32,042 nt of DNA. Source: Acidobacteriaceae bacterium. Lineage in GTDB: Bacteria; Acidobacteriota; Terriglobia; Terriglobales; Acidobacteriaceae. The position numbers and the translations under genes are program-made. Shown here piece after piece: positions 14,820 to 29,267 of the stretch (position 1 is its first letter; every line of letters starts with the position of its first letter). Location: positions 1 to 32,042 of the forward strand of contig PMUM01000131.1 in assembly GCA_003166855.1 (NCBI GenBank), written 5' to 3'. The notes below the pieces were generated by a model. It was not told the DNA's origin and searched no databases. It worked only from the letters and a program-made list of their open reading frames with translations.

Positions 14820-14853
14820 CGCTACTCTCCTCCATCACTCATCCGGCGAGGGC

Positions 14854-15129
14854 TCAGTTCACGAACGAAAACCGCCGTGTCAGCTTCATCAGCTTGAGAA
14901 CTTTGTAGACGTCGACATTCACGCCGCGGAGAACAACCTTGACATTCTTCTCATCGGCCACTCGGCCAAGCTCTTCCAACGCCCGCACCGCACCGGAATC
15001 GATGCGGGACACGGAAGAGAAGTCCAGAATGGACTCGACTTCGGTGCCATCCAGCTTCTCGCCAGTCTCCCGAAGAGCCCCGACCAGGCGCGTTTCATCA
15101 ATAGTCAGAAACACAGCAACGATTGCCAT
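14854..15129 (-). CDS. STAS domain protein (anti-sigma factor antagonist-like)
   Basis: A 91-residue single-domain STAS protein: an initial beta strand (AIVAVFLTIDETRLVG), then ESILDFSSVSRIDSGAVRALEELGRVADEKNVKVVLRGV. The Ser in RIDSGAV occupies the position phosphorylated in SpoIIAA/RsbV-type antagonists. STAS proteins act in partner-switching control of sigma factors, or as subunits of lipid transport (MlaB). No anti-sigma kinase or Mla gene is nearby. The start lies 15 bases after the adhE stop with a GGGAAGGG ribosome site in that gap, and wax synthase follows, so a regulatory or accessory role for those enzymes is possible but unproven. Confidence 0.85.
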   Translation of the reverse strand: MAIVAVFLTIDETRLVGALRETGEKLDGTEVESILDFSSVSRIDSGAVRALEELGRVADEKNVKVVLRGVNVDVYKVLKLMKLTRRFSFVN

Positions 15130-15144
15130 ATTCTTCGCCCTTCC

Positions 15145-17811
15145 CTAAACAGTTGAGTGCTCGACGGTGCTGGCCACCTTCGCCGCACCTCGCCCTTCAT
15201 AAGCTTTCCAAAACAGTTCGATGAGTTCTGACATGAGCGGCATGCGTGGATTGGATCGCCACGACGGATCCTCAAACGCAATGCTGGCCAGTTCGGGTAC
15301 CGCTTTTTCGAATTCTTCCCTGGATATCCCAAGTTCGGCGATCGACTGCGGGAATCCCAACTGGTCGAGCAACTGGTCTGTCGCCGCGATCAGGTTCGTT
15401 ACCTTTTCCTCGACAGTGTGCCCACCTAGGCCCAGCAGATCCGCGACTGTCGCATACTTCTTGTGTGCCGTGTATCCCTTGGTGTAAGGCGACGGCATGA
15501 ACTTGGTCGGGACCGCGGCGTTATAAGCAATCACGTGCGGCAGCATCAATGCATTGGCACGTCCGTGCGCAATGCCGAAGCGCGCACCGAAAGCGTGCGC
15601 CAGCGCATGGTTCACCCCTACCGAGGCATTCGAGAACGCCATCGCCGCAATGCACGCCGCATTGTGCATCATGCATCGTGCCTCTTCATCTCGCGGATGC
15701 TCGTAGGCAACCGGCAGGTACTTGAACACGAGCCGGATAGCCTGCATGGCGTTGGAGTCGGTGTAAGGCGAAGCGTAATTCGAAACGCCCGCTTCCAATG
15801 CGTGTGTGAGGCAATCAATCCCGGTATCCGCGGTCAAGCCCTTCGGCATGGACATGACAAACTGCGGATCGACGATAGCCACATCCGGAGTCAGCGAGTA
15901 ATCGGCCAGCGTCACCTTGCGCCCGCTCTCCTTATCCGTCAGCACGGCGAACGGTGTGACTTCGCTGCCAGTCCCGCTGGTGGTGGAAATCGCAATCAGT
16001 CGCGCCCGGTTCACCTTCTCTGTTGGATACTGCACCACCCGCTTGCGCAGATCCAGGAAAGGCGCTGCCAGATATTCCAAGTCGGCCTCCGGCGATTCGT
16101 ACTTGAGTTTCATGATCTTCGCCGCATCGATCACCGACCCTCCACCAAGAGCGATGATCTGATCCGCCTTGTAGAAATTGAGCGCCTCCACGCCCAGAGC
16201 GATGACCTTCACTTCGGGCTCTGCGTCTGGAATCACTTGCACATGCACGTGAGTCTTGGGACAGATGTGGCGCCGAACTATATCGACATGACCGATCTGC
16301 TCCAGGAGGGGACTGGTCACAATAATGGTGGAGAGTGACGGAAACTGGCGCAGATTCTCCACCGCATTCATGTTGAAGTAGATCTGATTCGGAACCCGGA
16401 ACCACATATGGTTTTGTGTCCTCCGAGCCACACGCTTGATATTGAGGTAATGAAAAACGTTTACGTTATCGGTGGTGCTGTTGCCTCCGCCGGTTCCGCA
16501 TCCGAAAGAGAACGTCGGCACCAGATCGTTGTAGACCGCTCCCAGCGCCCCGATCGATCCCGGTGAATTCACGATGATCCGCCCGGCATTGATTACTTCG
16601 CCAAACTTGCGGATGACGTCCTCGTTGCGCGAGAACACAACCGCCGTATGTCCCAAGCCCCCCGCATGGTTTACGTCCACACAGACTCGAAGCGCCTCAG
16701 CGACGGATTTCGCTCGATAGACAGCGAGTACCGGAAACAACTTCTCAACTGACAGTGGATGCTCGCGCCCCACACCTTGGATCGGTGCAATGAGCAGTTT
16801 GGTGTCGGGCTTCACCTTCAGGCCGACAAACCGTGCGATATTGGCGGCCGTCTGGCCGACCGCCATGGGCTGCATGAATCCGGTCTCCGGATCAATCACC
16901 GTGCGCTCGAGCAACTTGGTTTCTTTCTCATTGCAAATGTGCGCGCCCAGTTCGGCGAATTTCTTCAGCACCACGTCATAGATCTCATCGTCGATCACGA
17001 CTGTCTGTTCGGACGCGCAAATCGTCCCGTTGTCGAAGGTCTTGGAAACAATAATGTCCACGACAGCCGTGTTCACGTCTGCCGTTTTCTCCAAATAGAC
17101 AGGCGTGTTCCCTGCCCCCACGCCCAGAGCCGGTTTGCCAGAACTGTATGCGGCTTTCACCACGCCCGGTCCACCCGTGGCGTCGATCAGCCCGATGTCT
17201 TTGTGCTTCATCAGGTATGCGTTGTCCGGAAGGGTAGGCGAGTCCAGGCAGGCAAACACTCCTTCGGGCGCACCGTGCTTCACGGCGGCCTCGTACATGA
17301 TCCGTACCGCTTCTGAGCAGCAATGCCACGCCTTTGGATGAGGACTGAAAATCACGGCGTTCCGCGTCTTGATGGCCATGATGCACTTGAACAAGACGGT
17401 GGAAGTGGGATTCGTAATCGGCGTCAGGGAGAAGAGGACACCGATCGGTTCCGCCATCTCGATCAGGTTGCGTTCCGGAATCTCGCGGATGACGCCCACG
17501 GTGCGTTTGTCCTTGACGTAGTTGTAGACGAACTCGCTGGCCACCATATTTTTGATGACCTTGTCTTCCATTACGCCGAGCCGGGTTTCCTCAACTGCCA
17601 AACGCGCGAGATGTTGCGCTTGTTCCAGGCCAGCCAGGACCATCGGCTTCACGATGCGATCGACATCCTCTTGCGTGAATTGGCTGAAAACGGCGGCGGC
17701 GGTTCGGGCCTGACTGACCAGTCCTTCGAGGTAAGCGATCCGTTCCGCACTCACGCCTTCGACGGCGAGCGGAATTTGAACCCGTTCTTTTACCGCGTCA
17801 GTGACGATCAT
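15145..17811 (-). CDS. adhE: Bifunctional acetaldehyde-CoA/alcohol dehydrogenase AdhE
   Basis: An 888-residue fusion, the usual length of AdhE. The N-terminal CoA-acylating aldehyde dehydrogenase (about 1-450) shows TPITNPTSTV, GVGAGNTPVYLE and the catalytic Cys265 in NGTICASEQ. A linker ending near WFRVPNQIYFN leads into the iron-dependent alcohol dehydrogenase, with the NAD motif LGGGSVIDAAK and metal ligands in DCLTHALEAGVSNYASPYTD and NHALAHAFGARFGIAHGRANA. It reduces acetyl-CoA (perhaps other acyl-CoAs) to the alcohol with two NADH, a fermentative electron sink; AdhE typically forms filaments. The ATG has a GGAGG site 5 bases upstream. It is the first gene of a likely adhE-STAS-wax synthase unit, and a TGTGA-N6-TCACA palindrome lies about 275 bases upstream. 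Confidence 0.95.
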   Translation of the reverse strand: MIVTDAVKERVQIPLAVEGVSAERIAYLEGLVSQARTAAAVFSQFTQEDVDRIVKPMVLAGLEQAQHLARLAVEETRLGVMEDKVIKNMVASEFVYNYVKDKRTVGVIREIPERNLIEMAEPIGVLFSLTPITNPTSTVLFKCIMAIKTRNAVIFSPHPKAWHCCSEAVRIMYEAAVKHGAPEGVFACLDSPTLPDNAYLMKHKDIGLIDATGGPGVVKAAYSSGKPALGVGAGNTPVYLEKTADVNTAVVDIIVSKTFDNGTICASEQTVVIDDEIYDVVLKKFAELGAHICNEKETKLLERTVIDPETGFMQPMAVGQTAANIARFVGLKVKPDTKLLIAPIQGVGREHPLSVEKLFPVLAVYRAKSVAEALRVCVDVNHAGGLGHTAVVFSRNEDVIRKFGEVINAGRIIVNSPGSIGALGAVYNDLVPTFSFGCGTGGGNSTTDNVNVFHYLNIKRVARRTQNHMWFRVPNQIYFNMNAVENLRQFPSLSTIIVTSPLLEQIGHVDIVRRHICPKTHVHVQVIPDAEPEVKVIALGVEALNFYKADQIIALGGGSVIDAAKIMKLKYESPEADLEYLAAPFLDLRKRVVQYPTEKVNRARLIAISTTSGTGSEVTPFAVLTDKESGRKVTLADYSLTPDVAIVDPQFVMSMPKGLTADTGIDCLTHALEAGVSNYASPYTDSNAMQAIRLVFKYLPVAYEHPRDEEARCMMHNAACIAAMAFSNASVGVNHALAHAFGARFGIAHGRANALMLPHVIAYNAAVPTKFMPSPYTKGYTAHKKYATVADLLGLGGHTVEEKVTNLIAATDQLLDQLGFPQSIAELGISREEFEKAVPELASIAFEDPSWRSNPRMPLMSELIELFWKAYEGRGAAKVASTVEHSTV

Positions 17812-18155
17812 CGCTTCCTCCGTTGCGCCAGGAGCCGTCGCAAGAATACGTATGGCTGGATAACATCAGCCGGATAAGAGTTCTGAGTCGGGACCTACCG
17901 CTTCTGCCGCCCGCACGAATCGCTCGATCGCATGGGGAATGGAACCATCGTGGGATTCGCGTCAGGTGTGAGAACAACTTCGGAGGTGTCGGCTGTCTGG
18001 GATCCGGGGGGCACTGTGATTCAGCCTCGTCCCAAAGTAGAACTCCCAGAATGGGCGTGGTCAGCAACCACTGTCACGTGGGGCTGTGACGAACGTCACA
18101 CGGTTTTCTCGGGCAGAAACACTACGGCACGGGCCTCGCAAGCCTTCCCGCGCCT
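17812..18155. other. Intergenic region upstream of adhE (344 bases)
   Basis: No convincing gene is seen here. It holds the adhE ribosome site (17817-17821), a GGCTG-N8-CAGCC inverted repeat (about 17864-17881) with two nearby GGATAA copies, and the TGTGACGAACGTCACA palindrome at 18085-18100. No convincing -35/-10 pair for adhE was identified by eye. Confidence 0.5.
18085..18100. promoter_or_regulatory. TGTGA-N6-TCACA palindrome, CRP/FNR- or Rex-like site
   Basis: TGTGACGAACGTCACA has perfect 7-base arms around AA and exactly fits the CRP-type consensus TGTGA-N6-TCACA. The Rex redox repressor, a common regulator of adhE, uses a similar core but with A/T-rich flanks. It lies about 275 bases upstream of the adhE start and 55 bases before the 3' end of the GMC oxidoreductase gene, so adhE is the likely target. 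The regulator is not encoded in the window. Confidence 0.5.
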
Positions 18156-19847
18156 TCACCGGGCGAGGGAACGCGTGGCCGGCGAACTGGCAGCCACGTC
18201 GTTCCACTGCGTCTCTCTCGCAGTAGGAATCAGACTCATCGCGCGCTCTGCTAGCGCAGTAATCGTCAGGCTCGGATTGACTCCGAGATTACTGGCCAGC
18301 ACCGAGCCGTCGCAGATGTACATATTGCAATAGCCAAAGACCCGATGGCGATGGTCGACTACGCCGTGTTCCGGTGAATCGGCGATGACGCACCCTCCAA
18401 TGCAGTGCGCGGTACCGGGAATGTCAAACAGAATTTCGGGCAGCATGCTCATCGCAGTGCCGCCCGCGACATCGGCGAATTTTCGGGCAAACTCGTTGGC
18501 CTTTGGAATGTAGGTTGGCACCTTATCCCCGCGGCTCACCAGAGTCTTCGAGAACGGCCAGAACCACGGCCGTTGCCACCGCATCTCGATATGTCCCTCA
18601 ACCGCTTGCATGCAGAGGAGAATCGTAGCCTCACGCGCCCAGTCCCAGATTCGAAACAGACGTAGAGTCTTGACCGGGTGCAGCAGCAGAGAGCTCACGG
18701 TATTCTTCGCCCACAGCCCAATGCGCAGCAAGCCAGGGCGGCCGTCGGTGAGCATCGTGGTGAGCAAACCCATCGTGTCCGAACCTTTTGGATACCGCAC
18801 GACCTCAACGTGCGTATGTTCGTCGATGTAGATGCCGGAGCCGATTGCGATGCCCTGCGACAAATCCTCAGCACACCTGGGCACGCGCGCGCCGATGATC
18901 GATTCCGAGTTCGTGCGTACATGTTTGCCCAGTCGATCACTGATGCGCGGCAGCGAGCCGTTGTCCTTGAGCCGAAAGAGCAACTCCATCGTGCCGAGTG
19001 ACGACGCGGAGAACACTACTGCGCGACTAGTGAGCGTCCGCGGTGGCTGTGACATCCAGGCCATTGAATTCTCGGTATATACTGCGTACCCGGAACTCCC
19101 ATCGCCCGCACCCTGTAGCGGTTTCACGTTCACCACTTTCGTTTCCGGAATCACCACAGCCCCGTAATTTTCTGCCAAGTATAGATAGTTGAGATCCAGC
19201 GTGTTCTTCGCGCCGTACCGGCAGCCCATCATGCAACCACCGCAGCCGGTGCAGGTCGTTCGGGGCGGACCTTCCCCGCCAAAGAATGGATCCGGCACTG
19301 TCTGATTCTGTGTTCCTCCCTCGGCGGCCTGGAAAATACCCACACGCGTCGGGTAGAAGGTATGGCCAATGCCTGCTACTTCTCCGGTTCTGTTCAGGAG
19401 TTGATCGGCGGGCCCGAGGATCTTGTTTTGTGTGACCCCCAGCATGCGCGACGCCGTCTGATAATGGCGAAGCATCTCCGTCTTCCAGTCGGTCAAACCA
19501 GCCCATGATCCGGTTTGCCAGACTTTGTCCGGCGGAGGAAGCAGAGTGGCTGCATACGTGATCGATCCTCCACCAACGGCACAGCCGTGGAAGATCGTGG
19601 CATGCCGGAAGAAGCGCATGTTGAAGAAGCCGCGCAGGCCGACCTTCGGCCGCCAGAACCAGCGGTGAATCGACCAACTCGTGCGCGGAAAAGAAAGGGG
19701 CGCCCAGCGGCGCCCCATCTCAATCACGGCAACCCGATAGCCCTTCTCCACGAGTCGAAGGGCGGAAACACTGCCTCCGAAACCCGATCCGATCACAATG
19801 AAGTCGAAGTCGAAGTCGAAATCGAATTTGGGGCTACGGGTTGCCAT
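18156..19847 (-). CDS. GMC family oxidoreductase with ferredoxin-like cysteine motif
   Basis: A 563-residue FAD enzyme. The dinucleotide motif is VIGSGFGGSVSA (18-29) with Glu43 closing the strand; the GMC signature region includes HGCAVGGGSITYAA. A CX2CX2CX3C motif (Cys199, 202, 205, 209 in CTGCGGCMMGC) followed by RYGAKNTLDLNYL looks like a [4Fe-4S] ligand set. The C-terminal block DGSVLASNLGVNPSLTITALAERA is the usual GMC end. Overall it resembles cholesterol oxidase/fatty alcohol oxidase-like proteins; the substrate is unknown. The N-terminus has an FDFDFDFDF run encoded by a four-unit AAGTCG-type hexamer repeat. It starts 39 bases after the acyl-CoA dehydrogenase gene, so the two are probably co-transcribed. 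Confidence 0.85.
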   Translation of the reverse strand: MATRSPKFDFDFDFDFIVIGSGFGGSVSALRLVEKGYRVAVIEMGRRWAPLSFPRTSWSIHRWFWRPKVGLRGFFNMRFFRHATIFHGCAVGGGSITYAATLLPPPDKVWQTGSWAGLTDWKTEMLRHYQTASRMLGVTQNKILGPADQLLNRTGEVAGIGHTFYPTRVGIFQAAEGGTQNQTVPDPFFGGEGPPRTTCTGCGGCMMGCRYGAKNTLDLNYLYLAENYGAVVIPETKVVNVKPLQGAGDGSSGYAVYTENSMAWMSQPPRTLTSRAVVFSASSLGTMELLFRLKDNGSLPRISDRLGKHVRTNSESIIGARVPRCAEDLSQGIAIGSGIYIDEHTHVEVVRYPKGSDTMGLLTTMLTDGRPGLLRIGLWAKNTVSSLLLHPVKTLRLFRIWDWAREATILLCMQAVEGHIEMRWQRPWFWPFSKTLVSRGDKVPTYIPKANEFARKFADVAGGTAMSMLPEILFDIPGTAHCIGGCVIADSPEHGVVDHRHRVFGYCNMYICDGSVLASNLGVNPSLTITALAERAMSLIPTARETQWNDVAASSPATRSLAR

Positions 19848-19886
19848 ACAGCACCATCCTCGCGGTCCGGTTAGACGACGCGAAGC

Positions 19887-21680
19887 TTAAGCAACAACAT
19901 ACTTCCCGGTTTCAATGACCTTCTGAGCGATGGCCTGCCGCAGCGCCACCGTGTTGAACGGCTCGTACTTGCACAGCCGCCTCAGAATCGCCAACTGCGA
20001 GCGCAACATGTCTCCCTCGGCACACGCGGCAATCACCATCCTCGACGCGCTTTCGATTTTCTCCATCGCACCCGAAATGTAGACGCGGGCCATGGCAATA
20101 CTATGCGCACAGCCCGCTTCGCCGTGCTGCGCGGCCAGTTTCTGCGCACGTAGCACGGCGGACTCCATGGCATAGGTTTCGATCGTCATGTTGGCGATCG
20201 CGCCCATAATCTCCTGTTGATCCTGGATCGCCTGCATGTATTTCTGAGTGGCAATACCGGCGGCGAACAGGCCAATTTTTTTAGCCGTGGCAACCAGCTT
20301 CCGCTCTTGGGCCAGAAGCCTCTCCTCGACCTCGTCAGACGTTCCAGACAGCACTTCATCCATCAACTTCTTGATCGCGGCCATCAACGGAAGTTGTCCA
20401 GACATGGCCCGTTTCAGCAAAAAGCCGGTGATAAGCAGGCGGTTGATCTCGTTCGTGCCTTCGAAGATCCGGTTCACGCGCACATCCCGGTAGTTGCGTT
20501 CGGCAGGATATTCCTCGACAAATCCGTACCCACCGTAGATCTGTACCGATTCATCGACGACATAGTCGATGAACTCCGATCCCCAAACTTTGAGGATCGA
20601 ACACTCGACGGCGTATTCGTCGATCACCTTGCGCACCTGCGCCATGTCTTCGTGCTGTTCCCCGAGTTGCGCAATGGCTGCATCCATCATGCCGACGGTG
20701 CGATATGCCATTGCCTCGCCAGTGAAGATGCCCGCCGCCATGTTCGCGATCTTCTCGCGAATCAACCCGAAATCAGCAATCACTTTCCCGAACGCCTTGC
20801 GCTGCTTGGCATACGCAATCGCGCTCTCGATGCAGTTGCGCGCCGAGCCGACGCATCCCGCACCTAGCTTGAACCGCCCGACGTTCAGGACATTGAATGC
20901 AATGTGGTGTCCTTTGCCGATCTCTCCGAGCACGTTCCCAACCGGAACCTGGCAGTCGTTGAGAATCAGAGGACACGTTGAAGATCCCCGGATCCCCATC
21001 TTGTGTTCCTCGGCACCCACCGAAAAGCCGGGGAACCCGCGCTCGATGATGAACGCCGTGAACTTATCCCCGCTGACTTTGGCAAACACGATGAACAGAT
21101 CGGCGAAACCTGCATTCGTGATCCACATTTTTTCGCCGTTCAGCAGGTAGTGCTTGCCGTCAGCGGACAGCTTCGCCTGCGTGCGGCAATTCAAAGCATC
21201 CGACCCGGACGATGACTCCGACAGCGCGTACGCGCCGACGGTCTCCCCGCTGGCCAGTCCCGGCAGATATTTCTTCTTCTGCTCTTCCGTACCGAAGTAA
21301 ACGATGGGAAGCGTGCCAATGCAGGTGTGGGCGCCCCAGGTTGTGCTGAAGCCGCCGTACTTCGCGATCCGGTCGGCGATGATCGCGGAAGTCACCTTAT
21401 CCATCTCCATGCCGCCGTATTGCTCGGGCACGTCCACACCGCTCAACCCGAGTTCTCCGGCCTTCTTCACCAGTTCACGGACAATAGCGAAGTTCTTGTG
21501 CTCCATATTCTCGATATTGGGCACAATTTCCTTGTTCGCGAATTCTTCCGCGGTTTGCGCGATGAGCAGGTGCTGCTCGCTGAAATCTTCTGGAGTGAAA
21601 ACTTCCTCCGGCGCCCGCTCCTCGATCAGGAAGCTGCCGCCGCGGATCTTGCTACCCGGTACTGCGGTCACCGTAGCCAT
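19887..21680 (-). CDS. Acyl-CoA dehydrogenase with C-terminal extension (VLCAD/ACAD9-like)
   Basis: A 597-residue flavoenzyme, longer than the usual 380 residues because of a helical C-terminal extension of about 180 residues. Motifs are YALSESSSGSDA (151-162), the FAD/substrate segment WITNAGFADLF, and IQIYGGYGF-type (here VQIYGGYGFVEEYPAERNYRD). IFEGTNEINR carries the likely catalytic Glu407, as in very-long-chain enzymes. It catalyses the first dehydrogenation of acyl-CoA beta-oxidation, passing electrons to ETF. A GAGG-rich ribosome site precedes the ATG, and the GMC oxidoreductase gene follows. No ETF or thiolase gene is seen here. Confidence 0.92.
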   Translation of the reverse strand: MATVTAVPGSKIRGGSFLIEERAPEEVFTPEDFSEQHLLIAQTAEEFANKEIVPNIENMEHKNFAIVRELVKKAGELGLSGVDVPEQYGGMEMDKVTSAIIADRIAKYGGFSTTWGAHTCIGTLPIVYFGTEEQKKKYLPGLASGETVGAYALSESSSGSDALNCRTQAKLSADGKHYLLNGEKMWITNAGFADLFIVFAKVSGDKFTAFIIERGFPGFSVGAEEHKMGIRGSSTCPLILNDCQVPVGNVLGEIGKGHHIAFNVLNVGRFKLGAGCVGSARNCIESAIAYAKQRKAFGKVIADFGLIREKIANMAAGIFTGEAMAYRTVGMMDAAIAQLGEQHEDMAQVRKVIDEYAVECSILKVWGSEFIDYVVDESVQIYGGYGFVEEYPAERNYRDVRVNRIFEGTNEINRLLITGFLLKRAMSGQLPLMAAIKKLMDEVLSGTSDEVEERLLAQERKLVATAKKIGLFAAGIATQKYMQAIQDQQEIMGAIANMTIETYAMESAVLRAQKLAAQHGEAGCAHSIAMARVYISGAMEKIESASRMVIAACAEGDMLRSQLAILRRLCKYEPFNTVALRQAIAQKVIETGKYVVA

Positions 21681-21812
21681 ATTCCCTCTCCCTCAAAATA
21701 TTTGATTCGTGGGTTTCGGTTCAGCTCAGGACACAAACGTAAGTCGGCAGCAGCGGGGTTTTCATACCTGGCCGCCGACCCTCGCCTCCCGAGGTCGAGC
21801 GAAATGGCGCCC

Positions 21813-21835
21813 TCGGGCGAGAGCTTCTCGCCCGA
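21813..21835 (-). terminator. Strong stem-loop after the first phasin gene
   Basis: A perfect 10-base stem TCGGGCGAGA / TCTCGCCCGA with a 3-base loop lies 50 bases after the phasin stop and 133 bases before the acyl-CoA dehydrogenase start. On the minus strand it is followed only by a short ATTT, so it is a terminator-like hairpin without a good T tract. Confidence 0.45.
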
Positions 21836-21885
21836 AGACGCATAGGCATTGACCAGAACACGCTTAACGCAGACAGATCCGTCCC

Positions 21886-22800
21886 TCAGGCTGCGGCTGC
21901 TGCCGCCTTTTTCCCCGGCCTGCGGGTATGATGCTCCGCCTTCGCACTGGCCTTCGCTCCATTCGGCGCCTTCACCATCACATCCATCAATGCCTTCTGG
22001 GCATCGACGTAGCTCTTCACCGCCTCCCGCGTAAGTTCGCTCACGGGAAGAAACGGAAATGGCTTCAGCAGTTCCAGCGTCTTGCCAGCAGTTTTCACAC
22101 CGGTATTCATCTGCCGCCCCGCAACGTCCACCAGCCGCTTCTGCGCTTCCAGGAATGCATCCGTGGCTTTGCGTGCGAGTTCCGGCAACTCAGTCTTCTT
22201 TGTTTTCTTTCCAGCGTGACTGTGTTTGCCGCCGGTCGCCCTTGCCGTCTCATCCGCGAGGACGTCCATGAACTTCTTCTGTGCCTTGACGAAGTTCTCC
22301 ATGCTCTCGCGAGCGAGATCCACCACATGCTCCGGCTGGTACGGCTTGCCGGCCTTGGCGGACTCGACCCAGGCATGCGTCTGCTTGCCGGCGATCTTCA
22401 GATACTCTTCCTGCATCTCGATGAAGGTCTCCACGCTGCGCCGCAGCAGATCGGTCATCGCATGTGCCGCAGGCCAGTCTCCCATCCGTTCTTCCACGCC
22501 CGTAATCAGGAGTTCATTCTGTTGTTTGCCCAGTTCGAGTAGAACCCGTTGTCCCTCGAAAAAGTTCGCGAGGCCATCCTCGGCAATCTCGCCCAGGATC
22601 GCGGTCGGAGAATGATGCGGGTCCGAGAGTTGCTGCCGTACGGCGTGCATCACACTTGCATTCTGCCGCATGGCCAGGTCGATGAGGATACGTTGTGTCG
22701 CAAATAGTGTTTGCGCCCCTTGTTGCGCCCAACCCGAAAGCAGAGAGAACGTCGACGACTCTTTCGGATGAGTGGATTCATGCCTTATTGCCGCTGCCAT
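21886..22800 (-). CDS. Phasin-like granule protein with six ~46-residue repeats
   Basis: A 304-residue, mostly helical protein ending in a Lys/Ala-rich tail. It contains six copies of a motif like F-x-x-A-Q-[KR]-x-[LF]-[LM]-[DE]-[LV]-x-x-x-Q, with the central Gln at 36, 84, 130, 174, 220 and 268. The last four begin FIEMQEEYLKIAGKQ, FVKAQKKFMDVLADE, FLEAQKRLVDVAGRQ and YVDAQKALMDVM. This AQKxxLD pattern is that of phasins, the amphipathic coat proteins of polyhydroxyalkanoate granules, here in tandem. The frame is open to 22911, but the ATG at 22800 has AGGAGG 6 bases upstream and lies after a promoter and a PhaR-like operator, so that start is firm. It is divergent from phaR and paralogous to the gene at 27184-27939. 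The granule role is inferred. Confidence 0.8.
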   Translation of the reverse strand: MAAAIRHESTHPKESSTFSLLSGWAQQGAQTLFATQRILIDLAMRQNASVMHAVRQQLSDPHHSPTAILGEIAEDGLANFFEGQRVLLELGKQQNELLITGVEERMGDWPAAHAMTDLLRRSVETFIEMQEEYLKIAGKQTHAWVESAKAGKPYQPEHVVDLARESMENFVKAQKKFMDVLADETARATGGKHSHAGKKTKKTELPELARKATDAFLEAQKRLVDVAGRQMNTGVKTAGKTLELLKPFPFLPVSELTREAVKSYVDAQKALMDVMVKAPNGAKASAKAEHHTRRPGKKAAAAAA

Positions 22801-22814
22801 AAAACGCCTCCTAT

Positions 22815-22829
22815 TGCTGCATTGCAGCA
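22815..22829. promoter_or_regulatory. PhaR-type operator at the first phasin gene
   Basis: TGCTGCATTGCAGCA is a perfect inverted repeat (TGCTGC/GCAGCA) with an ATT centre. It matches CTGC-N3-GCAG, the site described for PhaR of Paracoccus. It lies between the -10 box and the ribosome site of the phasin gene, where bound repressor would block transcription. The identical 15-mer occurs at 27951-27965. Confidence 0.8.
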
Positions 22830-22837
22830 TCAGCCAA

Positions 22838-22866
22838 ACTATACGAAGGGAAGGGTCTTGTGTCAA
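22838..22866 (-). promoter_or_regulatory. Sigma-70 type promoter of the first phasin gene
   Basis: On the minus strand TTGACA (22861-22866) and TATAGT (22838-22843) are separated by 17 bases, a near-consensus promoter, followed by the PhaR-type operator and the phasin ribosome site. Confidence 0.8.
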
Positions 22867-22881
22867 GATATTCCTGCATCC

Positions 22882-22896
22882 TTGTGCACGGCAGCA
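22882..22896. promoter_or_regulatory. Degenerate PhaR-type site before phaR
   Basis: TTGTGCACGGCAGCA matches 11 of 15 positions of the phasin operator and ends 14 bases before the phaR ATG. It could mediate autoregulation, as known for PhaR elsewhere, but the left half-site is poor. Confidence 0.3.
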
Positions 22897-22910
22897 TGGG
22901 GCAGCGTCCA

Positions 22911-23438
22911 ATGAAACCCTCCACCATTCTCATCAAGAAATACGGCAATCGCCGGTTGTACGACACCACCAGCAGCCGTTACGTGAACCTCGACGATCTG
23001 GCCGCTCACATTCGCGCGGGCCGCGAGGTCAAAGTCGTCGACGCCAAGACCGGGCAGGATCTAACCCGCGTCCTGTTGACCCAGGTCATCACCGAAGACG
23101 CCAAGGACAGGCCCACGGGCTTGCCCCTTGAACTGCTGCGGCAACTGATCATCGCCTCCGATGAGGTGCGGCAGGAATTTCTCATGTGGTATCTAAAGTC
23201 CGCGTTCGACACCTATGAAAAAGTGCAGGACGCCGTGCAGAACCGCTTGAGCGAAGTGCAGTCCGCCATTCTCTCGCCCGTTGATATGATGAAACGCTTT
23301 CTGGGAACCACTGTGTCTCCCCCTTCGCGCACGGACTCGGAGCCGGAGGTTGAGGCCCTGCGGAAGCGGGTGGCGGAACTCGAAGCTCGCCTGAAAAAGC
23401 CCGCGCCGCCAAAACGCCGTCCCCGCAAGAAGCGCTAA
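22911..23438 (+). CDS. phaR: Polyhydroxyalkanoate synthesis regulator PhaR
   Basis: A 175-residue protein whose N-terminus ILIKKYGNRRLYDTTSSRYVNLDDL (about 6-30) is the hallmark of the PhaR/PhbF DNA-binding domain. The second conserved segment (about 70-130: LPLELLRQLIIASDEVRQEFLMWYLKSAFDTYEKVQ) is followed by a short coiled coil (EVEALRKRVAELEARLKK) and a basic tail. PhaR represses phasin genes when granule surface is absent and is titrated away by binding granules. The frame is open back to a GTG at 22860, but the ATG at 22911 starts just before the conserved domain. It is divergent from a phasin gene with a PhaR-type operator between. The family call is firm; local targets are inferred from the operators. 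Confidence 0.92.
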   Translation: MKPSTILIKKYGNRRLYDTTSSRYVNLDDLAAHIRAGREVKVVDAKTGQDLTRVLLTQVITEDAKDRPTGLPLELLRQLIIASDEVRQEFLMWYLKSAFDTYEKVQDAVQNRLSEVQSAILSPVDMMKRFLGTTVSPPSRTDSEPEVEALRKRVAELEARLKKPAPPKRRPRKKR

Positions 23439-23488
23439 GCTTGCAGAATTTTGCACACAAATATTGGATCCTCACTCAGAAATCCCTC

Positions 23489-23517
23489 TTGGACAGGTAA
23501 ACCTCCCGGGGTATACT
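23489..23517 (+). promoter_or_regulatory. Promoter of the alpha/beta hydrolase gene
   Basis: TTGGAC (23489-23494) and TATACT (23512-23517) are spaced by 17 bases, a good sigma-70 type promoter. It lies 66 bases before the TTG start of the hydrolase, so the gene can be transcribed separately from phaR. Confidence 0.65.
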
Positions 23518-23531
23518 TTTGCAGTGCAGCA
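23517..23531. promoter_or_regulatory. PhaR-type operator over the hydrolase transcription start
   Basis: TTTTGCAGTGCAGCA matches 12 of 15 positions of the two phasin operators, with an intact GCAGCA right half. It begins at the last base of the -10 box, so it would cover the transcription start. Confidence 0.55.
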
Positions 23532-23582
23532 TTCGCCCTTTCCGCGCCTCGACGCGCCGATCGGGCAGACCCAGGGACGAAC

Positions 23583-24395
23583 TTGCGGCGTAAACTGAAA
23601 AAAGCAGCGGCGCGCCCTTCCCCGGCCAAGCGGCGCAAGTCTGCTCCCCAGCCCTATCCCAAAGCCAACACTTCCAGTGTCTGGACAGAGGCTCTCTTCG
23701 GAGCTGAGATTCTGCTGTTACACGCCACTCCCGTTTATTACGGCTTGGGCGTACCGCGCGGCGATGGCTCTGCTGTCGTGATCATTCCCGGCTTTCTTGG
23801 CACTGATCTTTACCTGACCGAGCTTCATGCCTGGCTCCGGCGCATCGGATATCGCCCCTACTTTTCCGGTATCGGCATCAACGCAGAATGCCCGAACCTG
23901 CTCATCGAGCGCCGTCTGAACCAGACCATCGAAAAAGCTCTGATGGATACCGAACGAAAAATTCATCTGATCGGTCACAGCCTGGGAGGCCTGATCGCTC
24001 GTTCCGTAGCGGGCAACCGGCCAGACGACATCGCCTCTTTGATTACGCTGGCTGCTCCCATCCGTGGCACGGTTGCGAATCAAGCGGTTCTCCGCGCGGC
24101 CGAAGCCGTTCGTCTCCGCATTCTCGAGGAGCACGGTACAGGGGTACTACCCGACTGCTATACGGGACGCTGCACTTGCAATTTTCTGGGTTCTCTTCGC
24201 CGCAAGGTTCCCGACACGATGCTCGAAACCGCCATCTACACGCGCCAGGACGGCATCGTGGACTGGCGTTACTGCATGACCTTGGATCCTGAAAAGGACG
24301 TAGAGGTTCTGGGCACGCACATCGGAATGGCGTTCAATCCTGCGGCCTACTCGGTCGTCGCCGAGCGCTTGGCCAAAGCGCAATCGTCTGAATAG
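23583..24395 (+). CDS. Alpha/beta hydrolase, lipase/esterase-like (possible granule depolymerase or lipase)
   Basis: About 270 residues. An oxyanion-type segment VVIIPGFLGTD (65-75) is followed by the nucleophile elbow GHSLGG (Ser133), then LAAPIRGT. Likely acid and base lie in YTRQDGIVDW (Asp223) and VLGTHIGMAFNP (His246). The N-terminus is strongly basic (RRKLKKAAARPSPAKRRK), with no signal peptide, so it is probably cytoplasmic. The frame runs back to 23451, but the promoter and operator sit inside that stretch. The TTG at 23583, with AGGGA 5-6 bases upstream, is the best start. Position next to phaR and the PhaR-like operator suggest action on granule polymer or lipid; the sequence alone only says lipase/esterase-like. 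Confidence 0.75.
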   Translation: MRRKLKKAAARPSPAKRRKSAPQPYPKANTSSVWTEALFGAEILLLHATPVYYGLGVPRGDGSAVVIIPGFLGTDLYLTELHAWLRRIGYRPYFSGIGINAECPNLLIERRLNQTIEKALMDTERKIHLIGHSLGGLIARSVAGNRPDDIASLITLAAPIRGTVANQAVLRAAEAVRLRILEEHGTGVLPDCYTGRCTCNFLGSLRRKVPDTMLETAIYTRQDGIVDWRYCMTLDPEKDVEVLGTHIGMAFNPAAYSVVAERLAKAQSSE

Positions 24396-24405
24396 TTCCG
24401 GCCAA

Positions 24406-25353
24406 TCAGGGTCCGCCCACCATCTCCAACACAGATCCTGTAGCCGTTTCTAGTCTCTCGTCCGCACTGCCCAGGGTCTGTATCAGAAGTGACGCTGACG
24501 CCACGCTATTGTTCCAGACTTCGAAGCTGCCCGTGCAATCCGTCTTTACATACGGAAGACGATGCACGCTTGAACCATGCCCGTCGATCACCGCCTCCAC
24601 CCGCAGACCATTGCGTCCGGGGCAATGAAAACTCCAGTGGAAGGGTTCCTTGCTGACGCCGGATTCCTGCAATTTGCCGAACACATATTTCTGCCCATCG
24701 TGCCACAGCACCGCTTTGCGAAAGACCAGCCCAAACGGCATCTCGTAGACCAACGCTTCCAGCGTGCTTGCAGGCTGGCCGGAGCGGGGAAAATAAGCGT
24801 GCGTCCATCTCCAGAAGTTGCGATGTCGGTATCAGCAGTTGTGTCCCTGGACTCCAAACCCCAAAGGTTCGCCCGCAAAGCTCCGCCCGTCCATCGTGAT
24901 CTGCCCGGAAAAACATCCGTCAGAGTGTGGCGTGCGCGAGAAACCAATCCAGCCTTTATTGCTTAGTGTCACCGCAAATGTGGAACGATAGCGCAGATTC
25001 CAGGCGATTGCGTGGCCATCTACGTTCAACGATCCCCTACAAGAATCTTCTTCGATGGAATTCTCGCCCATGCGAAAGCGAAACGGACTCTGCCCTCTTC
25101 GGCTGATATCCAATCCCTCCAGCGGAAATCCCTGAATAAAATTCTGCGGCTTTCCGCCCGCCGGGAACCACGTGGCCCACACTTGCACCGGCATCCCTCG
25201 TGGGTTTCCGGCACAGCCGCCTCGCCCAGGATTCATCAACAAATAGCGAAACCACCACGCTCCGCTCCCGTCCGCCAATCCCATGCGCAGAAACCACACC
25301 TCATAGCGGCGCTTTACCGACAGTCCCGAAAATACTTCGTTCAGAGTAGCCAA
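24406..25353 (-). pseudogene. Lipocalin-like protein gene (CrtC/AttH/tocopherol cyclase-like) with in-frame TGA
   Basis: Two open segments (25353-24832 and 24831-24406) lie in the same frame and are separated only by a TGA at 24832-24834. Read through, they give one 315-residue protein rich in Trp and beta strands: YEVWFLRMGLADGSGAWWFRY, QVWATWFPAGGKPQNF, then FGVQGHNC-stop-YRHRNFWRWTHAYF and a C-terminal domain. The GHN...H...W.W.H pattern resembles the conserved core of lipocalin-type CrtC/AttH and tocopherol cyclase-like proteins, where GHNWG is usual, so the stop falls in the core. A TTG at 25353 is the only plausible start. Likely a recent nonsense pseudogene; sequencing error or readthrough remain possible. 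The family assignment is tentative. Confidence 0.6.
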
Positions 25354-25465
25354 GACTTCCTGCTCCAGACACCTAGACTATCTCACAGGACTTCCGGCGA
25401 TCCGGTGATGCCGGTCACTGCGCATCCGTGGGCTGGGGATCATAGTGTGATCGGTAGCTCCCTCT

Positions 25466-27151
25466 ATGCTGGATGCGTCCGCCATCGCAGCGGGCCTCCG
25501 CCTGCTCGCGCCCGACCAGTTGCGCACCGCCTTGGAGAATTTCCTGCCTCAAGGCGCAACCCCAGCCGAGAAGATCCGCCTCATTGAAGACGCCCTCCGA
25601 AGCCCCGCAGCTCCAGCGGTTCGCGACGCCATGGCACGCTGGATCGTCGACGAGATCGTGCCCGTCGATGCCCTGGTCCCGGAAGCCTACAAGAATTGGC
25701 GTCCGCCGGTGCGCGACGCCATGATGTTCGTGGTCACGCGTCTTTCCCCTGCGCGCCTCGCTCCCAAGCTGCTGGAGCAAATCGAACTGCCGGCCAGCAC
25801 ATCGCCCGAAGTGCGCCTGCTGCGGCTGATCGCGAAAGTCCCCGGCCTGCAGAAACTCGGCCAGGTCATCGCTCGGAACCAGCATCTCCACCCCGCCCTG
25901 CGCCGCGCCCTTTCCAGACTGGAAAACGGAATTCGCGATGTGCAACCGGAAGACATCCGCGCCATCGTCCAAAAAACGCTTGGGCCACGCGTCAAAACCT
26001 ACGCCGTAGAAATCTCGCCCAAAATACTCAAGGAAGCCAGCGTCAGTGCGGTCATTCGATTTACCTGGCGCAATCCAGAAACCGGGAAGCAAGAGCGTGG
26101 CGTCTTCAAAGTTTTGAAGCCGCATATCCCTGAATACTTCGCCGAAGATATGGATTACCTCCAACGCCTGGCCCAATACTTCGGGGATCGCCACCACAAT
26201 TATGGATTTGCACCCCACCTCATCCCTGACACGTTTCGCAAAGTCCGCCGCTTGCTGCGCCACGAGGTCAACTTCTCCCGTGAACAGAAGACGCTGATCG
26301 AGGCCGAGGCTCTCTATCGTGGCTTTCCCTTAGTGCGCATCCCACAATTAATTCGGCCGTTGTGCACGCCAACGATCACCGCGCTCACGGAGGAACCCGG
26401 AATTAAAGTGACCAGCGCGGCCGCCCGCTTGCCAGCCGCACGTCGCCGAAAGGTGGCCGAGCAACTGGTGGAAGCCCTGGTCGCCGTGCCCCTTTTCTCC
26501 TCGACACCAGATGCAATCTTTCACGGTGATCCCCACGCCGGCAACTTGCTGTACAACAACAAAACCGGCGAACTCGTAATCCTCGACTGGGCCCTGCGCG
26601 AACGTCTGAGCCGCGAACAGCGGCGTCATCTCGCGCTCTTATTTCTGATGGTCAGCCTGCGCGATCCAGTCGGCACGTCCAGCGAAGTCGCTGCGCTCAG
26701 TCAAACCCGCATCAGACTGGCTTCGCCCCGGGGCCGGAAGGTCCGCGAGACCGTGGGCAAGTTCCTCGAGGAGTTGCCGCCTTCCCGCATGCCCAGCGGA
26801 GCCGACGCCATGCGACTTGTGGAGCGCGTCGCGATCAACGGCGTCAAGTTCCCCAGCTCCCTGATCATGTTGTCAAAGGTGATGTTCACACTGGAAGGGA
26901 TACTGGGCGACATCGTCGGCGAGGACACGGGAATGGGGTTCACCCTCGCTCGTCACGTCGCCCAGCATTGGATTGCCAACCGCTCTGCGTTCCGTTCGCC
27001 ACTCATGACGCGCGACTGGTTTGCGCTTCAGTGTAGCGCCCTGCTCTACACGAGCCGCTTGTGGCTGCAGTGGGAACGAGCCTTGCTGAATCGCTTGCCT
27101 CAATCGAAACAATTGCTCGCGGCCACGGGAACGGAAGGGCGGCCGTCATAA
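25466..27151 (+). CDS. ABC1 (AarF/UbiB-like) atypical kinase family protein
   Basis: 561 residues. The ABC1-specific KxGQ motif is GLQKLGQ (Lys130-Gln133). The Ala-rich loop is degenerate (ASVSAVIRF, 191-199), followed by the lysine strand GVFKVLKP (Lys215, Lys218). The ExD motif reads EVN (Glu267-Asn269) instead of Glu-x-Asp. The catalytic loop HGDPHAGN (353-360) and the metal-binding LDWA (Asp374) are intact. About 110 N-terminal residues precede the family core. ABC1 proteins support ubiquinone or isoprenoid lipid biosynthesis and are major plastoglobule proteins in plants. There is no ubi gene nearby; it sits between storage-granule genes. The Asp-to-Asn change may alter ATP handling. The ATG at 25466 lacks a good ribosome site. 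Confidence 0.82.
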   Translation: MLDASAIAAGLRLLAPDQLRTALENFLPQGATPAEKIRLIEDALRSPAAPAVRDAMARWIVDEIVPVDALVPEAYKNWRPPVRDAMMFVVTRLSPARLAPKLLEQIELPASTSPEVRLLRLIAKVPGLQKLGQVIARNQHLHPALRRALSRLENGIRDVQPEDIRAIVQKTLGPRVKTYAVEISPKILKEASVSAVIRFTWRNPETGKQERGVFKVLKPHIPEYFAEDMDYLQRLAQYFGDRHHNYGFAPHLIPDTFRKVRRLLRHEVNFSREQKTLIEAEALYRGFPLVRIPQLIRPLCTPTITALTEEPGIKVTSAAARLPAARRRKVAEQLVEALVAVPLFSSTPDAIFHGDPHAGNLLYNNKTGELVILDWALRERLSREQRRHLALLFLMVSLRDPVGTSSEVAALSQTRIRLASPRGRKVRETVGKFLEELPPSRMPSGADAMRLVERVAINGVKFPSSLIMLSKVMFTLEGILGDIVGEDTGMGFTLARHVAQHWIANRSAFRSPLMTRDWFALQCSALLYTSRLWLQWERALLNRLPQSKQLLAATGTEGRPS

Positions 27152-27183
27152 ACCGACCACCGCCCGTTACAGTTTCACCCTGT

Positions 27184-27939
27184 CTAGACCGTGACAGCCT
27201 TCGGCCGGCGCGTTGTGCGAGCCCGGCCATGTTTGGCCGCCCGTCCGACGTTTTTCTTCGGCGGTTTGATGAGCGACCCGATCATCGAAGTCTCCGCGTC
27301 AAATAAGTTCTTTACACCTTGGCCGGTTCGAGTCGCAAAGGGTAAGAGCTGAGAAGGCGACACCAGTCCCATCGTTCGTGTCGCTGCGTCCAGGTTCACG
27401 TTCATCTGCTGGCCCATGACGTCGAGCAGTCTCTTCTGCGCCTCGACAAAAGCATTCCCGGCGTCGCGCGCCAGTTGTGCCAGTTCCGTCTTCTTCGCCG
27501 GTTTGCCTTCATGCGGCTTCCTGCTGCCGGTTGCCGTCGCGGCTTCCTGCGCCACCGCCTCGAGGAACTTCTTCTGGGCGCGAGTAAAGCTGTCCATTCC
27601 CTCACGGGCGAACTCGACCAGCCGCGCCGCGCGGGCGTCCTTCCCGACTGGTTCTGACTCCAGCCACTGCATCGTTTGCTTGCTGGTGGTGGTCAGCAGC
27701 TCCTGTTGCATCCCGATGAGCGTATCCAGGCTGCGTTGTACGAGACCTGTCACTGCAACTGCCGGCATGAAGCCGCCAATCCGTTCTTTGACTCCATTGC
27801 AGATAATGTCGGTTTCTTGTTGTGCCAGGTTAAGAAAAGTTCGCTGTGCTTCCACGAGGCTCGAGGTTCCCTCGACCGCCAGTTCAGTCAGAATCGACAG
27901 AGGAGACTCCTCTTCGTGGTTCTTGGTGTGGGTTGGCAT
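27184..27939 (-). CDS. Second phasin-like protein, paralogue with five repeats
   Basis: A 251-residue helical protein with a basic tail (RAAKHGRARTTRRPK). Repeat cores LVEAQRTFLNLAQQE, LIGMQQELLTTTSKQ, FTRAQKKFLEAVAQE, FVEAQKRLLDVMGQQ and LFDAETSMIGSL have their central residue at 32, 78, 122, 168 and 216. The spacings 46, 44, 46 and 48 equal those of repeats 2-6 of the phasin at 21886-22800. The block KKTELAQLAR...FVEAQKRLLDV is closely shared, so the genes are paralogues. The ATG at 27939 has GGAGG 4 bases upstream and lies after an operator and promoter; the longer frame to 28002 includes these signals and is rejected. Converges with the ABC1 gene. A granule coat role is inferred. Confidence 0.8.
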   Translation of the reverse strand: MPTHTKNHEEESPLSILTELAVEGTSSLVEAQRTFLNLAQQETDIICNGVKERIGGFMPAVAVTGLVQRSLDTLIGMQQELLTTTSKQTMQWLESEPVGKDARAARLVEFAREGMDSFTRAQKKFLEAVAQEAATATGSRKPHEGKPAKKTELAQLARDAGNAFVEAQKRLLDVMGQQMNVNLDAATRTMGLVSPSQLLPFATRTGQGVKNLFDAETSMIGSLIKPPKKNVGRAAKHGRARTTRRPKAVTV

Positions 27940-27950
27940 AGTGCCTCCAT

Positions 27951-27965
27951 TGCTGCATTGCAGCA
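27951..27965. promoter_or_regulatory. PhaR-type operator at the second phasin gene
   Basis: TGCTGCATTGCAGCA, identical to the site at 22815-22829 and in the same place between the -10 box and the ribosome site. Confidence 0.8.
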
Positions 27966-27973
27966 TTAACCAA

Positions 27974-28002
27974 ACTGTAGTATCCACGCGGCTTCCAGTC
28001 AA
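27974..28002 (-). promoter_or_regulatory. Sigma-70 type promoter of the second phasin gene
   Basis: On the minus strand TTGACT (27997-28002) and TACAGT (27974-27979) are separated by 17 bases. The stretch from the -10 box through the operator (27949-27979) differs from that of the first phasin (22813-22843) at only 3 of 31 positions. Confidence 0.78.
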
Positions 28003-28041
28003 TAGGCGCGGCGCAAGATTTGCGTCATATCACTGCGAAGT

Positions 28042-28055
28042 GTGACCGCGGTCAC
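28042..28055. promoter_or_regulatory. 14-base perfect palindrome
   Basis: GTGACCGCGGTCAC lies between the second phasin promoter and the divergent hypothetical gene. It could be an operator for either. A TATTCT at 28083-28088 is a possible -10 box for the downstream gene. Confidence 0.3.
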
Positions 28056-28126
28056 CGGAATTAATTAAGCGAAAACCGAATCTATTCTGGTGGAGGAGTG
28101 AGGGTTGTCGGCCCTCTTTGCGCTCG

Positions 28127-28588
28127 ATGGAAAAACTTCCTGCAGTCGAAAACGCGAAAGCGCTAATGACCGAAGCGATGACCTGGTCGGTCATGAAGTG
28201 GCTGCGCGAAAAGAAAAGAGTGCGCAGAACTGCCGATCTGGCTAACGCCGCCCTGGACCAAGCGAGCCAAGCAATCCGAGAGCGCTGGCCGGAGCTTATC
28301 AGAACGGCCTACGAAGCACTGGTCATGCGAACTGCCGGAACCGTCTCCGCGGATCGCCAGCAGGCCGTACCGTTGAAGACTGACCCGGCGGCAACGCTCA
28401 CCGCCAGCAAAAGCCACGAAGCCGATGACGAAGCCTACCGCGCCCGCATGGAAGCCGAAAAAGCCTTCGACGATGCCGAGCGACAACTCAGCACCAGCCT
28501 CGCTCGCGAAGGATGTCGAAAAGCCATTCACTCCTGGGACCTGCACGAGAAGGCGATTCGCAAAGCCGAAGTCCTCATTCGCACGTAG
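28127..28588 (+). CDS. Hypothetical charged helical protein
   Basis: About 153 residues from the ATG at 28127 (a TTG at 28118 is also in frame; neither has a well-placed ribosome site, a GGAGGAG lies about 30 bases upstream). No known domain is recognised. The N-terminal half (MEKLPAVENAKALMTEAMTWSVMKWLREKKRVRRTADLANAALDQAS) and the C-terminal half (DEAYRARMEAEKAFDDAERQLSTSLAREGCRKAIHSWDLHEKAIRKAE) look helical and highly charged, joined by a Thr/Ala-rich linker. There is no signal peptide or membrane segment. It is divergent from the second phasin and its 3' end overlaps the convergent hisA by 14 bases. A granule link is possible from position only. Confidence 0.6.
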   Translation: MEKLPAVENAKALMTEAMTWSVMKWLREKKRVRRTADLANAALDQASQAIRERWPELIRTAYEALVMRTAGTVSADRQQAVPLKTDPAATLTASKSHEADDEAYRARMEAEKAFDDAERQLSTSLAREGCRKAIHSWDLHEKAIRKAEVLIRT

Positions 28589-29267
28589 TGACGAACCCTG
28601 GCAGGAGCCCTTGGTAGATCGCCATTCCCACCACGGCATCCACGCCCATGGCATGTAATTCGTCGATCTCTTCTTGACTCCGGATTCCCCCCGCCGCAAT
28701 GAGTTGTCGCGCCGTAGCCTCGCGCAGCGGACGAATCACCTCCTGCGGAAATCCCCCTAGCATGCCCTCCGTCTCCACATGCGTATAGAGAAACGCTCCG
28801 CACCACGGCTCCAGTGCCAGTACCATTTCGAGCGGCGTCACGGCTGTCACCTTCCGCCACCCGTGAATCGCCACTCGATCCTCAATTGCATCGAGAGCAA
28901 AAACCAATCTGCCGGAGCCCACCGCTTCGGCCAGCCGTTCCGCGAATCCCACGTCGAGTTTGTCCTCGGCGAACAGCGCTGACCCGAGGATGACCCTCTG
29001 CGCCCCCGCGGCGAGCGCCGCTTGCGCGGCCTCCACCGACCGGATGCCCCCTCCCACCTGGCACGGCAACTGACGAGCCAATTCCCTCACCAGCCCAGCG
29101 TTGTTCCCCGTCCCAATAGCGGCGTCAAGATCGATGAGTTGCACCAGAGGGAACTTCGAGAAGCGATCCACCCATAGTGCGAAGTCATCGAACTCCAGCG
29201 CCTTCTTCCGGCCCTGCACCAACTGGACGATCTTGCCGCCCATCAAGTCGATCGACGGAATCAGCAT
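28575..29267 (-). CDS. hisA: Phosphoribosylformimino-5-aminoimidazole carboxamide ribotide isomerase HisA
   Basis: A 230-residue TIM barrel starting [19 protein letters not shown], with catalytic Asp7, Asp126 (FALDAIED) and Thr162 ([10 protein letters not shown]), and phosphate-binding VGGGIR and AAGGIRS loops. It isomerises ProFAR to PRFAR in histidine synthesis. A GTG six bases earlier (29273) is in frame; the ATG at 29267 has GAGG 5 bases upstream and fits the family start. It overlaps the end of hisF by 7 bases. The THVETEG segment replaces the more common TDI.RDG but keeps the key Thr. Confidence 0.92.

Follow-up and report, generated by a model that had tools for sequence, protein, structure and literature searches.

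A PhaR-like repressor and conserved palindromic operators at phasin-like genes in an acidobacterial locus that encodes a wax ester synthase/diacylglycerol acyltransferase

Introduction

In proteobacteria that store polyhydroxyalkanoate (PHA), such as Cupriavidus, Paracoccus, Rhodobacter and Sinorhizobium, a PhaR/AniA repressor with a PF07879 domain acts at sites of core CTGC-N3-GCAG in phasin promoters and probably regulates its own gene; according to the account in PMC12542648, polyhydroxybutyrate draws PhaR from DNA in Sinorhizobium and other proteobacteria. Here, we analysed a 32,042-nucleotide stretch of DNA from an Acidobacteriaceae bacterium (the whole of contig PMUM01000131.1, assembly GCA_003166855.1; hereafter, the window) in which these features recur: it encodes a PhaR-like repressor and two phasin-like proteins whose genes share a promoter-operator module. 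It also encodes a wax ester synthase/diacylglycerol acyltransferase (WS/DGAT), and across related genomes the repressor and WS/DGAT were found together. We propose that the PhaR-like repressor probably controls coat proteins of neutral-lipid bodies, containing wax ester or triacylglycerol (TAG), rather than of PHA granules.

PMC6273058 reports that association with TAG inclusions is possible for a PHA phasin. In the parts of PMC10351704 that treat bacterial WS/DGAT gene clusters, a phasin is mentioned once, for a scaffold that is discussed under Pseudomonadota, with no reference to PhaR, and neutral-lipid accumulation in Acidobacteriota is called unexplored. A search of titles and the beginnings of abstracts in the open literature found no paper linking PhaR with WS/DGAT or with storage in Acidobacteriota. 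The pairing of PhaR with WS/DGAT in place of a PHA synthase is the more interesting aspect of this locus, and one that went beyond the first-pass annotation of the window, which had described a local PhaR regulon with a duplicated promoter-operator module.

Results

Both phasin-like genes carry the same promoter-operator module

The window is one contig (C308) of a 6.94-Mb assembly (G000) in 479 contigs, estimated to be 93% complete with 6% contamination. The duplicated module was found as first described: the 15-mer TGCTGCATTGCAGCA occurs exactly at 22815-22829 and 27951-27965, positions 22813-22843 and 27949-27979 are identical at 28 of 31 places, and the two minus-strand promoters read TTGACA-17-TATAGT (22866-22838; phasin-like gene 1) and TTGACT-17-TACAGT (28002-27974; phasin-like gene 2). 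Both promoters were recovered in a promoter scan, and relatives carry promoters similar to the first. Read along the minus strand, each module consists of a -35 box, 17 bases, a -10 box, 8 bases, the palindrome TGCTGCAATGCAGCA, a ribosome-binding site and ATG, such that operator 1 (22815-22829) and the identical operator 2 (27951-27965) lie between the -10 box and the ribosome-binding site. The 15-mer is a perfect palindrome with arms of 7 bases and a free central base, and it would cover the transcription start, a usual position for a repressor site. The duplication also holds at the level of the genes, because the two proteins (phasin-like protein 1, 304 amino acids, 21886-22800; phasin-like protein 2, 251 amino acids, 27184-27939; both on the minus strand) are paralogues with 42% identity.

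With up to three mismatches allowed, the window held seven matches to the 15-mer on both strands (at four places) relative to 1.25 expected. When 14 positions were counted, eight matches of at least 11 were found, compared to shuffle means of 2.04 at 11 or more and 0.17 at 12 or more. A mechanical promoter scan of positions 13000-28700 returned four sites, which does not exceed the shuffle expectation of 4.6; three of the four were the two phasin promoters and the promoter of a hydrolase gene (see below).

The exact palindrome is confined to PhaR-positive genomes among 101

The 15-mer was not common at random positions of the genome, as exact TGCTGCAWTGCAGCA was present at only two places in the whole assembly, both in the window. 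Up to two mismatches, the pattern occurred at 21 places vs 6 for a reversed control. When the central base was left free, a third palindrome was found at position 2318 of contig C372, upstream of a third phasin-like gene (1426-2301 of C372; 56% identical to phasin-like protein 1) that adjoins a gene for a patatin-like phospholipase (PF01734; L125, G000:C372, 2-1141, minus strand). Thus, the regulon proposed as local comprises two phasin-like genes in the window but is not wholly local, because the third has the same module on another contig. The other two single-mismatch sites of this genome, C131:69658 and C271:28395, fall within reading frames that, by reading of the sequences, are aminopeptidase-like and outer-membrane-efflux-like, respectively, and were taken as chance matches.

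Among a first set of 101 genomes (this genome and 100 relatives; many of the compared genomes are metagenome assemblies), TGCTGCANTGCAGCA was found at 38 places in 23 genomes, and its reversed control at 2 places. All 23 belonged to the 27 PF07879-positive genomes and none to the other 74 (Fisher P = 5e-19, a value inflated, like the others given here, by shared ancestry). The next gene was phasin-like for 36 of the 38 exact palindromes, and at those 36 places a promoter-like sequence (9 to 11 of 12) preceded the palindrome. The two exact palindromes without a phasin-like gene downstream were G007:C33:64022 and G019:C10:4282. Beside the former (L143, 10023-10037), the best promoter-like match was only 6 of 12. 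The latter (L145, 4282-4296) is situated near the end of its contig, where the downstream stretch is cut; it shares bases with the -10 box of a promoter-like TTGACA-17-TATGCT and is a possible further PhaR target. When one mismatch was allowed, matches appeared in 54 of the 101 genomes, PhaR-negative ones included, and the pattern was no longer informative. A chance origin of the palindromes was rejected by the exact scans of the genome and of the 101 genomes.

For a second set, an alignment of the phasin-like proteins was searched against 84,980 species genomes, which gave 56 loci, all from Acidobacteriota or groups within that phylum; by phasin-like protein, the nearest relatives were acidobacterial metagenome genomes, e.g. 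Candidatus Sulfotelmatobacter. This set is not independent of the first (several contigs are common to both), its gene counts are lower bounds since many fetched stretches stop at contig ends, and its distances were measured to the start of the protein match and not to the gene start. TGCTGC-N3-GCAGCA was present upstream of the phasin-like match in 56/56 loci, at a distance of 9-72 bases in 55 and 244 bases in one. The operator is therefore conserved upstream of phasin-like genes in relatives (36/38 places; 56/56 loci). Counts at the arm positions of the operator are fixed by construction of the pattern, so that only positions 7 and 9 are informative; position 7 was A in 65/67 copies and position 9 was T in 64/67.

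It is very improbable that these palindromes belong to another regulator and that PhaR is a bystander: the core of the palindrome equals the PhaR site CTGCNNNGCAG published in PMC12542648, and the exact palindrome was seen only in PhaR-positive genomes among the 101. The proposal that the PhaR-like protein controls both phasin-like genes is well supported in the sequence by its PF07879 domain, by CTGC-N3-GCAG at both promoters and by all 56 loci, and repression of these genes through the palindromes is predicted with high confidence.

PhaR occurs with WS/DGAT in genomes of the window's type

The window encodes a WS/DGAT (13224-14819, minus strand; TIGR02946, 332 bits, cut-off 310) with the sequence HHCLADG, an instance of HHxxxDG, which we take to be the WS/DGAT motif. 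Of the 27 PhaR genomes in the first set, nine had a class III-like PHA synthase (PhaC) beside phaR (TIGR01836, 322-339 bits, below the cut-off of 365) and no WS/DGAT. The other 18, the window's genome included, had no clear PhaC, with no match to PF07167 and a single 20-bit TIGR01836 match in G058; in the window's own assembly (estimated, as above, to be 93% complete) neither profile found a PHA synthase. Matches to PF06850 were discarded, as they lay inside PhaC genes themselves. WS/DGAT was present in 17 of these 18 genomes: 15 were over the cut-off, G058 reached 304 of 310 bits and G034 had a 58-bit fragment at a contig end, which was counted since this tally leaves nothing out. The only exception (G023) is 77% complete. 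By comparison, 2 of the 74 PhaR-negative genomes had WS/DGAT, one of them partial (Fisher P = 4e-16 for WS/DGAT with the window's PhaR type in the 101 genomes, inflated by shared ancestry). Among the 56 second-set loci, 30 carried a WS/DGAT match and in none did the fetched flanks include a sister-PhaC homologue; in five, WS/DGAT followed the phasin-like match on the same strand after 202-302 bases, a place comparable to that of PhaC in the sister loci.

A phylum sample of 396 genomes (some also in the first set) contained PhaR in 86. Clear WS/DGAT was found in 58 genomes, 57 of them with PhaR (P = 9e-46; P = 3e-36 after leaving out one oversampled genus), in a tally that left out 16 of 74 WS/DGAT genomes with a best match of ~62 bits or less. 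Clear PhaC was found in 30, 28 of them with PhaR, after leaving out 21 of 51 PhaC genomes with a best match of ~36 bits or less. Overall, 40 of the PhaR genomes had WS/DGAT only, 17 had both, 11 had PhaC only and 18 had neither, and within 10 kb of phaR there was WS/DGAT in 19 genomes and PhaC in 23. One genus (g113) contributed 14 genomes with PhaC beside phaR and two WS/DGAT matches elsewhere, in which both storage routes may coexist.

These counts bear on whether the locus is an ordinary PHA regulon whose synthase is missing from the assembly or too diverged, with WS/DGAT an independent neighbour. PhaR, the phasin-like proteins and the operator are all of PHA type, six of the nine related genomes with PhaC beside phaR carry the same exact operator, and the assembly is incomplete; however, no clear PhaC was detected in any of the 18 genomes of the window's locus type by the same searches that recover one in the other nine PhaR genomes, WS/DGAT goes together with PhaR in the sample of the phylum and a sister-PhaC homologue is missing from the fetched flanks of all 56 loci. 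We consider an ordinary PHA regulon unlikely. The PhaR regulon of the first-pass annotation was thus retained for its PhaR domain and phasin operators, though probably as one that does not serve PHA, because no PHA synthase was found while WS/DGAT lies in the window. For the same lack of a detected synthase, wax ester or TAG bodies are the most likely inclusions, and we regard neutral lipid rather than PHA as a likely identity.

The phasin-like proteins and the PhaR-like repressor are diverged members of their families

Phasin-like protein 1 had weak similarity to PHA_synth_III_E and Phasin_2, below cut-offs, and the phasin-like proteins have Ala/Lys-rich C-terminal tails. The best matches among 25 phasin-like members were 7.8e-5 for PF09712 and 9.7e-4 for PF09361. 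Compared to the phasin-like proteins of the PhaC loci, which are weak Phasin_2 matches themselves (best 4.5e-4), blastp against a database limited to 15 proteins gave E values of 1e-9 to 1e-12 at 21-25% identity, and hhalign of the window type with the PhaC-locus type gave a probability of 96 (E 3e-9). When the alignments of the phasin-like proteins and of PhaR were used as profiles against solved structures, nothing usable was returned.

The repressor (175 amino acids, 22911-23438, plus strand) matched PF07879 at 92.2 bits (cut-off 25) and the NCBIfam equivalog TIGR01848 at 97.5 bits, below its cut-off of 109.45. PF05233, the PHB (polyhydroxybutyrate) accumulation regulatory domain, was not matched up to E 10, and was found in the S. 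meliloti and Azospirillum PhaR in the same scan. We named the protein PhaR-like because of the missed TIGR01848 cut-off and the undetected PF05233. A tree of PhaR placed the phasin-B locus rows on one side of a branch with support of 44/0, and a single origin of WS/DGAT-linked PhaR was therefore unsupported.

Weaker operator copies precede phaR and the hydrolase gene

A weak operator, TTGTGCACGGCAGCA (22882-22896, plus strand), matches 11 of the 14 counted positions upstream of phaR, from which autoregulation had been suggested. With eight matches at this level in the window vs 2.04 in shuffles, the copy is not significant by itself, and support comes from conservation. PhaR was matched in the fetched stretch of 49 of the 56 second-set loci, and a degenerate copy, TTGTGCA-N2-GCA-N-CA (up to 2 mismatches), occurred within the 80 bases that precede the phaR match in 36 of these 49; in one (L182) it is the phasin operator itself, which leaves 35/49, relative to 0.05 loci expected in shuffles. 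The pattern was derived from the alignment before counting, and close relatives are not an independent test of it. The conserved site makes autoregulation of phaR quite likely.

The hydrolase gene (23583-24395, plus strand; start codon uncertain) encodes a lipase-like alpha/beta hydrolase with a GHSLG sequence. Its profile found triacylglycerol lipases first among solved structures (E 1e-9, positions 34-139 of 239), and a fold search found generic alpha/beta hydrolases (TMq 0.36-0.58 among the matches listed). The promoter TGGACA-16-TATACT (23490-23517, plus strand, from the promoter scan) is followed by the operator copy TTTTGCAGTGCAGCA (23517-23531, plus strand), which overlaps the end of the -10 box. 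The site, at 12 of 14 counted positions, supports the early assignment of the hydrolase to PhaR, but it is kept only in close relatives: reading of the alignment gave a copy in 9 of its 15 loci, the window among them, and 8 of 42 second-set loci had one, each at a similar distance from the gene. The hydrolase was therefore reduced from a general PhaR target to a lineage-specific one, and in this genome it is probably under direct PhaR control. A hydrolase match was present in 44 of the 56 second-set loci, and in 13 it followed the phasin-like match, on the same strand and 200-561 bases further downstream. This arrangement suggests that its own operator may have replaced control by the phasin promoter when the gene moved.

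Other genes of the island

At lower coordinates than the phasin-like genes, and all on the minus strand, are genes for a long-chain acyl-CoA ligase (FadD-like, profile match, 10537-12315), the WS/DGAT, a STAS-domain protein (PF01740, 14854-15129), a full-length AdhE-type bifunctional aldehyde/alcohol dehydrogenase (PRK13805, 1151 bits, cut-off 951; 15145-17811), a cholesterol-oxidase-like GMC oxidoreductase (NF058674, 859 bits, cut-off 850; 18156-19847) and a FadE-type acyl-CoA dehydrogenase (NF058590, over cut-off; 19887-21680). AdhE stands directly before the STAS protein and WS/DGAT, an order found in many relatives, and was present in 23 of the 56 second-set loci, the GMC oxidoreductase recurring in 13. 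That AdhE neighbours WS/DGAT hints that alcohols made by fermentation are esterified, i.e. at wax ester fermentation as a redox sink. PF07993 was unspecific for telling wax ester from TAG, as it matched all 14 controls. Two further conserved neighbours are an ABC1/UbiB-like kinase (PF03109, 25466-27151, plus strand) and the stretch 24406-25353 (minus strand), which has a single in-frame stop (24832-24834); the corresponding stretches of 14 other loci contain none.

Discussion

As we envisage the circuit, the PhaR-like repressor (22911-23438) would bind its palindrome just downstream of the -10 box, about the transcription start, and block transcription of both local phasin-like genes and of the third copy on another contig; it would also bind the weaker copy upstream of phaR and, for this lineage, the one upstream of the lipase-like hydrolase gene. 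By analogy with the proteobacterial circuit, accumulating lipid bodies would draw PhaR off the DNA, so that coat proteins are made in step with the bodies, which would be wax ester or TAG inclusions made by the WS/DGAT of the same locus. More tentatively, one acidobacterial PhaR lineage may have kept its operator and been re-targeted to the sensing of wax ester/TAG bodies, together with dedicated coats, a PhaR-controlled lipase and an AdhE-STAS-WS/DGAT set; the product would have been swapped (WS/DGAT for PhaC) and the regulatory module kept, a scenario that we regard as possible rather than probable.

Several observations weigh against a dedicated neutral-lipid circuit. Within the window, no operator copy (at least 10 of 14) was found up to 330 bases upstream of the WS/DGAT, STAS, AdhE, GMC, FadE and FadD genes, and direct control of lipid synthesis is therefore unsupported. 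Neither phasin-like protein of the window matched the Pfam phasin families PF05597 and PF09361 at 1e-3, and the helical model of phasin-like protein 1 is poor (pLDDT, the predicted local distance difference test score, 43.5) and uninformative beyond its helices. The lack of PF05233 was rejected as a sign of a new ligand, given that the PhaC-linked acidobacterial PhaR proteins included in the scan (L096, L101 and L204) are also without it. In the phylum sample, the 17 genomes with both synthases and the 18 PhaR genomes with neither indicate that PhaR is not tied to one product, and shared ancestry lowers the weight of the P values. Outside the window's family, none of 23 phylum-sample loci had the palindrome within ~1.5 kb of phaR; one of them (L228) has the shorter core CTGC-N3-GCAG. 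The four newly taken phylum-sample loci inside the family (L203, L214, L218 and L222) carry it, and the operator was therefore traced in the window's family and in loci of Bryobacterales, Bryobacteraceae and Solibacteraceae, not phylum-wide.

Some of these points would fit a generic lipid-surface or stress module, associated with membrane or nucleoid and partly like MLDS/MLDSR of Rhodococcus, with a loose link to storage. The Ala/Lys-rich tails and weak family scores, the 18 phylum PhaR genomes with neither synthase by the thresholds used and the lipid-synthesis genes without an operator are consistent with such a module. However, the co-occurrence of WS/DGAT with PhaR (57/58), its 19 close linkages to phaR and the location of acyl-CoA genes and the gene for the lipase-like hydrolase within one conserved island argue against it, and we judge it quite unlikely, more so than an ordinary PHA regulon.

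Control of neutral-lipid coat proteins by PhaR, if true, would mean that a circuit thought to be specific for PHA granules is a more general sensor of storage bodies in which the stored product is exchangeable, and Acidobacteriota, which are common in soil and peat, would gain a concrete gene set, with a defined operator, for the storage of fat or wax. What PhaR recognises, i.e. PHA or the surface of any hydrophobic inclusion, also becomes a testable question. Together, the results suggest that uncultured soil acidobacteria have adapted a known granule-sensing circuit to a different type of storage.

Compared to the PhaR/AniA-phasin circuit of proteobacteria, with which it shares the features set out above, the window's genome lacks a detected PHA synthase, its locus includes WS/DGAT, its repressor has no detected PF05233 and its phasin-like proteins fall below Pfam cut-offs, and the operator is extended to a palindrome with 7-base arms. 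With bacterial WS/DGAT gene clusters, the window shares a TIGR02946 match over cut-off, the HHxxxDG motif and acyl-CoA genes nearby. The behaviour proposed here resembles that of MLDS/MLDSR in Rhodococcus jostii RHA1, in which, as described in PMC5504291, the regulator can repress a droplet coat gene and is drawn off DNA by neutral-lipid droplets. According to the same source, MLDSR differs in its predicted XRE-type helix-turn-helix, in its box GNT(T/A)GCTNNTGCTANC and in that it can also activate; PhaR does not appear in that text, and the likeness drawn here is one of behaviour. Close, too, are the acidobacterial phaR-phasin-phaC loci of the same genus (9/101 genomes), which differ in having a class III-like PhaC instead of WS/DGAT. 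Their PhaR proteins are ~38-44% identical (nine loci) and their phasin-like proteins ~21-25% identical (six compared) to those of the window, and six of the nine carry the same exact palindrome, with a phasin-like gene that adjoins the operator and diverges from phaR.

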